34,339 bases of DNA, taken from positions 1-34,339 of the forward strand of contig RFFU01000071.1 in the NCBI GenBank assembly GCA_003697085.1, in the 5' to 3' direction. The notes under the pieces were generated by a model. That model was not told the origin of the DNA. It was given only the letters and a program-made list of their open reading frames with translations, and ran no database searches. Position 1 is the stretch's first letter; each line of letters begins with the position of its first letter. A program made the position numbers and the translations under genes. This document shows, piece after piece, positions 17,699-22,118 of this stretch. This stretch comes from Candidatus Hydrogenedentota bacterium. GTDB lineage: Bacteria; UBA8481; J006.

Positions 17699-19482
<1,784 letters not shown>

Positions 19483-19486
<4 letters not shown>

Positions 19487-20493
19487 ATCGAGACGGCGGA
19501 GGAATACGGAAACGCGAGACGAAGCCGCGCCCCGGGCGCCGCGCCGCCCGTTCACGGCTTCAAGGCAATGATTCCCTGGTTCCGCGGATCATTCTTTCCC
19601 GCCTCCTGGAGTTGCCGATCCAACGTTATCTTCGCTTCATTGAGAAAACGGTTTCGAACAGCCCGGTGTCCGAGTCTTTCTTCCGGGGCGACTTGGTCCG
19701 GAAAGGCGATATCTCGGGCGGCAAGGATCTCTTTTCCAGTAAAGAAGTGTACGGCCGAGTGGTCGTTTTGGACGATCATCTTTCTCTTTTCACGACACGT
19801 CCGTTTCTGGAGTATGAATTTCCCGTGGAATTGGATTGGTCGCCGGGGCTGGCGGCTTCGTTCCGTTGGATCAATACACGAAACCGGCTTTCGCGGCATA
19901 TCGTCCTGGCCCTGTTGAAGTACCAACGAAAATTCTGGACAACCGAGGACGAGACCGACCTCCGGCCGTTGACGCAACAGCAGTTTCTTGCTCTTTATCC
20001 GGCTCCGTTTCTCGATGCATCACGTCTCTCGCGCTTGATCCGCGTTCTTCCCCTACTCACTCCTCGTGGCAACATCATTCCCGCGCGAAGACTCTTCGTC
20101 TCCCGCCGGCGCTTTCTCTCCTACCAGATTCGCCGCATCCTGCACGCCGAGGCGCGATTTTTAACCGATCGAGAGATCCAGGATCGTCTTCGAAAGATCC
20201 CCGCGGCGGCCGGAGTTTACGAAATCAGTTCTTCCCGGCGCGCGCAATATCCGCTCATACCGTCGGACGTCGTCTACCTCGGCTCCTCGCGCTGCCTTCG
20301 CTCGCGCCTGCGGAACTACACTCTGCCCCGGCTGGCCAATCCCCGCCTCGAAGCGCTGCGCCGCTCGCAACAACTCTTCGTTCGGTTCGTATCGACTCGG
20401 AAATTTCAGTTCTTGGAAAAGCAATTACTCGCGGAGTTCCGTCGGATGCACGGACAATTGCCGCTGGGAAACCGGCTCGGAGCGGCGTCGTGA
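19483..20493 (+). CDS. Sigma-54-like domain fused to a GIY-YIG nuclease fold
   Basis: A 336-residue protein. The C-terminus (about 242-332) is a GIY-YIG domain: GVYEI (244-248), VVYLG (263-267), Arg274/Arg276, Glu312 in FLEKQLLAEF and Asn330 near the end. The middle (about 90-238) resembles the second half of sigma-54: RWINTRNRLSRHIVLALLKY and QRKFW match the helix before the DNA-binding domain, RPLTQQQF with SRLSRLI the helix-turn-helix, LLTPRGNIIPARRLF the characteristic TPRG strand, and FLTDREIQDRLRK the LSDxxI helix. The RpoN box expected next is absent and GIY-YIG takes its place; the sigma-54 activator region is also missing. ATG 19483 overlaps the sensor stop and AGAGGA lies 6 bases upstream. 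The sigma-54 relation is my reading of motif order, not a search result. Confidence 0.75.
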
Positions 20494-22118
20494 CCCCGTT
20501 TCGAAGAAAGAGACGCGGCGAGATTCTTCTCGTGCTTCACCGGTTCCGCATCACCCTTGCAGAAGAAGAAGAAGAAGAAGAAGAAGTCGTCATCCTCGAG
20601 GATGTCACCGATCAACGCAGTCTCTTCGAGGAACTGATGCGAAGTCGAGAGAGTTTCACGAACGTGGTGGACCGCGCCGCTGACGGGATCGTTGTTCTTT
20701 CTCCCGAATTCGAGGTGCTTTATTTCAACGACGCCGCGCTCGAATTGCTTGGCGTCGAGCCGCGGGAATGGCCCGCATTCTTCGATCGCGCGGGCTTGAA
20801 GCCGGATTCCACGACCGAATGCGCGCACCTTCACCCGCGACACGGAGAACGATTCCTCGAGTTCGTCTGTGGAAGAACCCAGTGGCAGGAAAAACCGGCC
20901 CTCTTGATGACGATCCGCGATGTCAGCGATCGGAAGGCGCTCGTAGACGAACTGCGCCAGGCGCAGAAGATGGAGTCGATCGGACGTCTGGCCGGCGGTA
21001 TCGCCCATGATTTCAATAATATCCTGACAGTATTGCAGAATGAGGCGGAACTCATCGAAGAGGCGGCACAGGATTCGGATGTTGCGGACCACGCCAGGGA
21101 GATCGGAGAGGTCGCGCGCCGCGCCTCCGATCTGACGCGAAGACTCCTGGCCTTCGGCCGCAGGCAACTGCTCAATCCCGTTCCCGTCGAGATCAACTCC
21201 CTCCTCCACGATCTCTCTCGCCTCATCCGGCGCCTTCTGCCCGAAGGGATCAAGGTGAGGATTGAGTCGGGCCCCGAAGATCTCTGGGTCCGCGCCGATC
21301 CGAACCAGATCGAACATGTTTTCATCAATCTCTCCATAAACGCGCGCGACGCGATGCCGTCCGGCGGACGCCTCACCTTCAGCACGGCCCGCGAGGAACT
21401 CGACACCCCACGACGAGGGCCCGACGGTCCGATCCCCCCGGGCGCTTACGCCTTGATCCGCGTCTCCGATACCGGAATCGGGATGGATCGCGAGACGCTG
21501 GCGAGAATCTTCGAACCGTTCTTCACCACGAAAGCCTCCGGCGAGGGAACCGGACTGGGGCTTTCGATGGTCCATGGCATCATCCACCAGCACAACGGAT
21601 TCATCGAGTGTGAAAGTCGGCCCGGCGAAGGAACGACCTTTACGATCCGGCTTCCGGAAATCCCCGCGCCGGAATCTGCTTCCCCTGAACCCACTCTTTC
21701 CGCGAAAGATCCGGACGCCGTCTCGAAAGCAAGTGTTATCGATAAAAAGACGATTCTCGTTGTCGAAGACGAAGAGGCGGTACGGCGCATCATCGAACGC
21801 ATCCTGACGAACGCGGGGCATGCCGTCCTGCTCGCTTCATCGCTAAAAGAAGCGCGCGAACGCCTCGATGCCGACGCCGGGAGGTTGGATCTCATCTTCT
21901 CCGATATTTCACTTCCGGACGGCGCGGGGACGGAACTGCTGGCGTTTCTGAAGGAACGGGGCTTCGCGATGCCGGTTCTCTTCACGAGCGGTTATACGGA
22001 GCGCGAATTCTTCGAAAGTGTTCGTGAAAGCAAGAACGTCCATTTTCTTCATAAACCTTTTACATCCAAGGCTCTTCTCCAGAAACTGGCCGTGATCGAT
22101 ACGGGGTGTCGAGAATGA
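20490..22118 (+). CDS. Soluble hybrid histidine kinase, C-terminal half of a split receptor
   Basis: A 542-residue protein. It begins with the last strands of a PAS domain (EILLVLHRFRITLA, eight Glu, VVILEDVTDQR), matching what the sensor at 17699 lacks. A full PAS follows (about 55-150). Then the kinase: H-box KMESIGRLAGGIAHDFNNIL, N-box HVFINLSINARDAM, G1 VSDTGIGMD, F-box IFEPFFTT and G2 GTGLGLSMVHGI. A receiver ends the protein (ILVVEDEEAVRR, phospho-acceptor Asp in LIFSDISLPDG, HKPF). All catalytic motifs look intact. GTG 20490 is the first in-frame start after the upstream gene; GGAG lies 7 bases before it and it forms a GTGA overlap with that gene's stop. It probably phosphorylates its own receiver and perhaps the receiver at 14180. 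Confidence 0.93.
   Translation: MTPFRRKRRGEILLVLHRFRITLAEEEEEEEEVVILEDVTDQRSLFEELMRSRESFTNVVDRAADGIVVLSPEFEVLYFNDAALELLGVEPREWPAFFDRAGLKPDSTTECAHLHPRHGERFLEFVCGRTQWQEKPALLMTIRDVSDRKALVDELRQAQKMESIGRLAGGIAHDFNNILTVLQNEAELIEEAAQDSDVADHAREIGEVARRASDLTRRLLAFGRRQLLNPVPVEINSLLHDLSRLIRRLLPEGIKVRIESGPEDLWVRADPNQIEHVFINLSINARDAMPSGGRLTFSTAREELDTPRRGPDGPIPPGAYALIRVSDTGIGMDRETLARIFEPFFTTKASGEGTGLGLSMVHGIIHQHNGFIECESRPGEGTTFTIRLPEIPAPESASPEPTLSAKDPDAVSKASVIDKKTILVVEDEEAVRRIIERILTNAGHAVLLASSLKEARERLDADAGRLDLIFSDISLPDGAGTELLAFLKERGFAMPVLFTSGYTEREFFESVRESKNVHFLHKPFTSKALLQKLAVIDTGCRE
20562..20585 (+). repeat. (GAA)8 in-frame trinucleotide tract
   Basis: Eight GAA codons (Glu25-32 of the kinase half) lie between GCA and GTC, as in the (GAA)13 tract 1939 bases upstream. 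It sits in a loop between two PAS beta strands. Because each tract is in codon phase in its own gene, recombination between them would give an in-frame fusion. Confidence 0.95.

Follow-up and report, generated by a model that had tools for sequence, protein, structure and literature searches.

In GIY-YIG nucleases, the GIY-YIG domain is joined to a separate DNA-binding module, and among free-standing phage homing endonucleases the overlap with the upstream open reading frame (ORF) suggests translational coupling (PMC2988022). Here, we focus on a bacterial gene family that shares fold and catalytic residues with the UvrC N-domain, I-TevI, the T4 seg enzymes and T4 EndoII, but whose DNA-binding module is derived from the transcription factor sigma-54; we found no described GIY-YIG enzyme with such a module. 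In Aeh1, the host gene nrdA has been left in pieces by mobE. The family resembles T4 seg/mob and Aeh1 mobE in that the insertion consists of an ORF only and the host gene lies in pieces, but differs from phage homing endonucleases in its residence in bacterial chromosomes and plasmids, in its association with sensor-kinase and chemoreceptor genes, and in its link to a GAA microsatellite.

The second point of comparison is RpoN itself (PF04963/PF04552, TIGR02395). Profile, predicted fold and motif order are alike, and most members of the family keep the RpoN box. In contrast to RpoN, the fusion has a much shorter core-binding region, a divergent N-terminus and an appended nuclease, and the copy analysed here has lost the box; its genome (G000) has a separate full-length rpoN. 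Papers treating GIY-YIG together with sigma-54, RpoN or PAS were sought in the open-access literature and none was relevant. As far as could be found there, the fusion is undescribed, as the preliminary description of this DNA had supposed.

Domain Architecture of the Fusion Protein

The window, i.e., the whole stretch of 34,339 nucleotides of a Candidatus Hydrogenedentota bacterium that was analysed, carries the fusion gene, which is present once in the genome (3.2 Mb, 145 contigs). Its parts are as follows.

19483-20493, + strand: sigma-54-derived/GIY-YIG fusion gene, ATG start, 336 aa
19573-19686, + strand: N-terminal helical hairpin, region-I-like by structure only (AlphaFold2 helices 32-42, 46-58 and 63-68; VIA)
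19840-20190, + strand: C-terminal part of the sigma-54 core-binding region plus helix-turn-helix (residues ~120-236), no RpoN box (alignment, PDB profile, VIA)
20203-20472, + strand: GIY-YIG nuclease domain with Y246, Y265, R275, E312 and N330 (alignment, VIA)

A Pfam search with the window protein returned zero domain matches. Direct HMM searches gave two sub-threshold matches, to NCBIfam rpoN_sigma (E = 0.038, residues 130-208) and to the GIY-YIG protein UvrC (E = 0.02, residues 229-286). These weak but well-placed matches flagged the ORF, which would have been missed by Pfam alone. At the level of the family the assignment is clear: Sigma54_DBD is matched in Pfam by 12/16 members (best 1.2e-12), GIY-YIG likewise by 12/16 (best 1.4e-6), and a profile of the family matches the sigma-54 chain 5ui5_I in the PDB with E = 2e-16. 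The residues Y246, Y265, R275, E312 and N330 are identical in 18/18 aligned family members.

Structure predictions agree with this assignment. The AlphaFold2 model of the window protein (pLDDT 71.6, pTM 0.57) superimposes on sigma-54 chain 7qwp_M with Z = 14.4 over 167 residues at 3.6 Å, spanning model residues 31-222, and on the UvrC GIY-YIG domain with Z = 6.0 (both VIA). For the relative L056, model residues 107-252 align with residues 281-474 of sigma-54, RpoN box included (Z = 9.5), and its nuclease part aligns with UvrC GIY-YIG at Z = 9.4; both structures are predicted models of middling confidence. The preliminary description had proposed a sigma-54-type middle part followed by a GIY-YIG domain with its key positions kept. 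The direct sequence match to the former is weak, and it is the family profile and the VIA superposition that decide in its favour; the latter is borne out by the invariant residues and the UvrC fold.

Two further statements of that description need to be narrowed. It reported the RpoN box as missing, which is true of the window copy, where no box lies between the motifs DREIQDRL and KIPAAAGVYE. As a natural trait of the family the absence does not hold: full-length relatives show the order N-terminal hairpin, shortened core-binding part, helix-turn-helix, RpoN box, linker and GIY-YIG domain, and the alignment shows the box kept in most relatives, as in L053 (SRRTVSVCRQELRIPSS). Judged from this alignment, the loss is peculiar to the window copy. 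Since the box is absent, the window protein is not classed as a sigma-54 factor. The description also called the activator-interacting region absent. A helical hairpin near the N-terminus (residues 32-58) is, however, conserved in the family, and structural superposition places the model, from residue 28-31 onward, on sigma-54 from residue 12-15 onward, which is region I. A sequence-profile comparison of the N-terminal part with region I was not significant, so that the likeness is one of structure. As a separate observation, three loci (L057, L062, and L064) have in-frame inserts resembling repetitive palindromic sequence inside the core-binding region.

A Sensor-Kinase Gene Split Within a PAS Domain

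The fusion gene lies between two ORFs that encode parts of a sensor kinase.

17699-19486, + strand: upstream sensor ORF with HAMP and two PAS domains, breaking off inside a third PAS after its N-terminal half (Pfam, junction sequence)
19223-19486, + strand: N-terminal half of the split PAS domain (joined-halves test)
20490-22118, + strand: downstream ORF with the PAS C-terminal half, a further PAS, HisKA, HATPase and receiver (Pfam, sequence)

The upstream stop codon and the nuclease start codon share bases (ATGA at 19483), and the GTG start of the downstream ORF likewise overlaps the nuclease stop (GTGA at 20490). Both halves of a PAS domain split at one position occur at 12 loci, namely the window and 11 others (L056, L057, L058, L059, L060, L062, L064, L137, L138, L139, and L165), a count that leaves aside further copies reaching a contig end. 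An upstream ORF ending in the same half-PAS is found at L056-L060, L062-L064, L137-L139, and L165. The joined halves of L064 match PAS_7 as one complete domain (profile positions 4-114 of 115, E = 6e-4), and each half alone has no PAS match; the joined halves of the window match PAS_7 weakly (E = 0.064).

An uninterrupted ("empty") PAS allele, L085, is held by genome G250. Aligned at the DNA level with the occupied allele L137, it is conserved on both sides of the insertion point, and the insert of ~1.2 kb comprises little beyond the ORF. A PAS tree pairs L085 and L137 as sisters (support 100/100), which implies either repeated invasion of the site or one precise loss of the insert. This evidence for insertion comes from relatives outside the window's own species. 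Group I and group II introns were considered and rejected, since no Rfam match to an intron RNA was found in six loci (matches in the window are at chance level) and the insert contains hardly any sequence besides the ORF. In G250, two tract-bearing PAS sensor genes, L140 (G250:C197) and L085 (G250:C226), are without the nuclease gene, which lies on another contig of that genome.

Linkage to TTGCA(GAA)n Tracts

The sensor gene carries two copies of a pure GAA repeat that follows TTGCA.

18618-18661, + strand: first tract, TTGCA(GAA)13, in a PAS of the upstream ORF (poly-Glu), with AG-N10-GC register upstream
20557-20585, + strand: second tract, TTGCA(GAA)8, 69 bp past the nuclease gene in the part encoding the C-terminal PAS half

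The position of the second tract is common to the window and 13 other loci. Outside Arcobacteraceae, nearly every copy of the gene is accompanied by a pure (GAA)6-13 after TTGCA, usually within 0.1-1 kb, and the poly-Glu runs of the flanking PAS domains use GAA without interruption for 6 to 13 codons. Copies of the gene located outside a PAS (L053, L054, L080, and L081) are accompanied by the tract as well.

Genome-wide, GAA tracts were found almost only beside the fusion gene in a search of 17 genomes, which showed no tract in three genomes with nuclease-free relatives nor in two genomes whose copies have no neighbouring tract (L055 and L061); a tandem-repeat search near L061, L082, and L055 likewise showed no GAA-type tract. 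The one exception in the window's genome is L096 (G000:C9:15868), a (GAA)10 without TTGCA that lies antisense to poly-Leu in an unrelated protein. A blind search for the tract in 344 genomes around G250 detected it in 10. In the seven newly found, the gene lies 60-110 bp upstream of the tract in four, one tract is at a contig end and two are unrelated sequence. The reciprocal search for the gene identified 9 carriers among the 344 genomes, four further matches being ordinary RpoN. The tract is present in 7/9 carriers versus 3/335 non-carriers (Fisher p = 4e-11, indicative only, as related genomes among the 344 are not independent); an eighth carrier, L165, has the interrupted tract GAAGCA(GAA)4.

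TTGCA is the sigma-54 -12 consensus. At codons -1 and -2 before the tract, pairs with the same residue are identical at synonymous sites in 127/127 cases, versus 715/1478 elsewhere in the same genes, and at the second tract position in the PAS the synonymous sites are identical in 20/20. Furthermore, most sites have AG or GG ten bases upstream although the encoded amino acid varies (Arg, Ser, Gly), which is sigma-54 spacing. The site of L054 reads TTGGCAC-TATTT-TTGAA. For L053, L054, L080, L081, L136, and L137, the best -24/-12 site scores rank among the highest 0.2-1% of windows; the commonest type scores unremarkably. Hence, the idea of a nuclease guided to -24/-12-type sites gains from a conserved TTGCA(GAA)n with a -24/-12-like register beside the gene, but the -24 resemblance is only suggestive.

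The tract occurs in both occupied and empty alleles (L137 and L085). Insertion does not destroy the site, unlike a classic homing site. The PAS domain of L133 (G580:C164, 180-320) has an upstream-type context (GRSVVAIFA) on one side of (GAA)8 and the downstream-type AIIVSLKDITER on the other, the pattern that would arise if recombination between two tracts had removed an intervening copy of the gene; no fusion gene was detected in G580.

Distribution and Mobility

Bacteria of at least six phyla carry the same fusion, at >30 homologous loci in all. A search of other genomes with the window protein yielded a homologue in G094 (E = 1e-30) and weaker ones elsewhere. Single-protein scans of genome contigs and viral contigs gave zero matches, and an alignment query succeeded. 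In 84,980 species genomes the alignment scan, which used one pattern so that its count is a lower bound, recovered at least 12 loci, in Aquificota, Chloroflexota, Desantisbacteria, Bacteroidota, Stahlbacteria, Desulfobacterota, Campylobacterota and further lineages. Taxon names are those of the titles of metagenome-assembled genomes (MAGs), which provide the bulk of the evidence, and mis-binning may affect single assignments; the contigs of L059 and L138 exceed 200 kb. Three plasmids carry the gene, annotated merely as "GIY-YIG nuclease family protein." A phage origin was rejected, as zero of 50,697 phage genomes match the fusion gene. The sole contig from a viral collection is L143 (IMG/VR), which holds the C-terminal end of a fusion gene beside a tract-bearing PAS.

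The gene tree mixes phyla, and copies from Stahlbacteria and Desulfobacterota MAGs are 71-75% identical. Among five close pairs, two show clearly lower synonymous divergence in the gene than in its flanks: 0.28 versus 0.47 for L136/L137, with 0.06-0.13 in the first 120 codons, and 0.25 versus 0.48 for L058/L063. The plasmid pair L080/L081 shows a tendency in this direction, and three other pairs show no effect. Mobility of the fusion gene is well supported, and the suggestion in the preliminary description that it might be a homing-type element is strengthened by the precise insertion site with its empty allele and by the patchy distribution across phyla and plasmids. Guidance to RNA polymerase, which it also offered as an option, gained no support. 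Overall, that description's interpretation of the ORF is partly supported.

The gene is under purifying selection (dN/dS 0.15-0.33). Frameshifts in L060, L062, L063, L064, and L139 all lie at A8-A9 runs, and the GIY domain past the frameshift is constrained (L062/L139: 0.22, 95% 0.12-0.42). The low dN/dS and this constraint where it was tested led us to reject the family as pseudogenes. The A8-A9 frameshifts point to nuclease expression that is limited by slippage, possibly programmed. Three of the frameshifts lie at the same junction between the DNA-binding and nuclease domains.

In Arcobacteraceae the setting is different. The copies show no GAA tract and no convincing -24/-12 site nearby and lie at varied loci, with a chemoreceptor (MCP) gene beside 11/13 of them (10 by motif plus a truncated MCP beside L061). 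At L181-L191, L061, and L082, the adjoining methyl-accepting chemotaxis genes are mostly in divergent orientation. The gene occurs in 12/150 genomes around Aliarcobacter vitoriensis, and at a ligase neighbourhood it is absent in seven relatives of G841.

Proposed Mechanism and Alternative Explanations

The fusion, its insertion at one PAS position, its linkage to tracts and its constraint are established. To account for them, we favour a free-standing, gene-splitting endonuclease of the homing type whose sigma-54-derived DNA reader is aimed at sensor genes via TTGCA(GAA)n, a reading to which we assign a probability of roughly 0.55. The fusion protein would bind the TTGCA(GAA)n site through its sigma-54 part, with the helix-turn-helix reading the -12 element and, in most relatives, the RpoN box reading -24. 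The GIY-YIG part might then nick or cut at or near the tract in sensor genes, and recombinational repair would then copy the gene across. The GAA microsatellite could serve as the target, be a footprint of the process, or both. The two pieces of the split kinase gene are translationally coupled, and their products may still cooperate as two polypeptides. Uninterrupted PAS alleles of this type are rare, so much of the distribution may be due to transfer of the split cassette as a unit.

If this is true, the promoter-reading module of a transcription factor became the targeting part of a mobile nuclease, and sensor kinases across phyla would provide a chromosomal case of "genes in pieces." It would also mean that a nuclease gene is very tightly linked to a trinucleotide microsatellite, that the maintenance of a pure GAA repeat in bacterial coding DNA becomes directly testable, and that a naturally modular site-reader exists for a GIY-YIG cutter.

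The main oddity for classical homing is that the tract survives in occupied alleles, and this keeps alive a reading that we hold to be tentative and rather unlikely, in which a sigma-54-guided nuclease diversifies sensor genes by repeat-length change and recombination and spreads by homing. Such a domesticated diversity system would nick TTGCA(GAA)n to drive expansion or contraction of the repeat or recombination between tracts, thereby tuning poly-Glu loops or shuffling PAS modules. It would accommodate tracts that are pure GAA even in GC-rich plasmids, that occur at two PAS positions and that are also found in nuclease-free PAS genes of a genome with the gene elsewhere, as well as flanking sensor modules that vary greatly among loci. 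L133 is the PAS chimera expected from recombination between upstream and downstream tracts, and the A8-A9 runs may limit expression of a nuclease whose GIY domain is still constrained downstream. However, members in Arcobacteraceae lack tracts, and insertion into an empty site is better explained by homing.

Could the gene be a stationary component of transcription or signalling, i.e., a sigma-54-like DNA binder with a regulatory GIY-YIG domain in a three-gene split-kinase system? The invariance of the catalytic residues, the patchiness even among close Arcobacteraceae, the absence from one chromosomal neighbourhood in seven relatives and the existence of an uninterrupted PAS allele all speak against this, and we consider it improbable even though the nuclease gene is consistently placed between sensor half and kinase half, with translational coupling, and the neighbours are signalling genes, including MCP in Arcobacteraceae and GGDEF/EAL on the plasmids. 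Finally, a GIY-YIG nuclease with a chance helix-turn-helix, in a cassette that was transferred often and whose GAA runs are under protein selection, is very improbable: many loci do share one type, as a single insertion followed by transfer would give, and codon tests for pure GAA are weak in AT-rich genes, but the sigma-54 homology is significant, tracts also lie beside the non-PAS copies (L053, L054, L080, and L081), and the frozen synonymous sites before the tract are unexplained by protein-level selection.

Nuclease-Free Relatives

Divergent sigma-54-like proteins without a nuclease are encoded in G028, G116 (two copies) and G182 (L006, L005, L013, and L028). They have the same unusual N-terminal hairpin, core-binding and DNA-binding parts as the fusion family and differ from it in the missing GIY-YIG domain; the three genomes also show no GAA tract. 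These proteins, which match TIGR02395 with up to E = 1.8e-28, are probably relatives of the ancestor of the fusion family.
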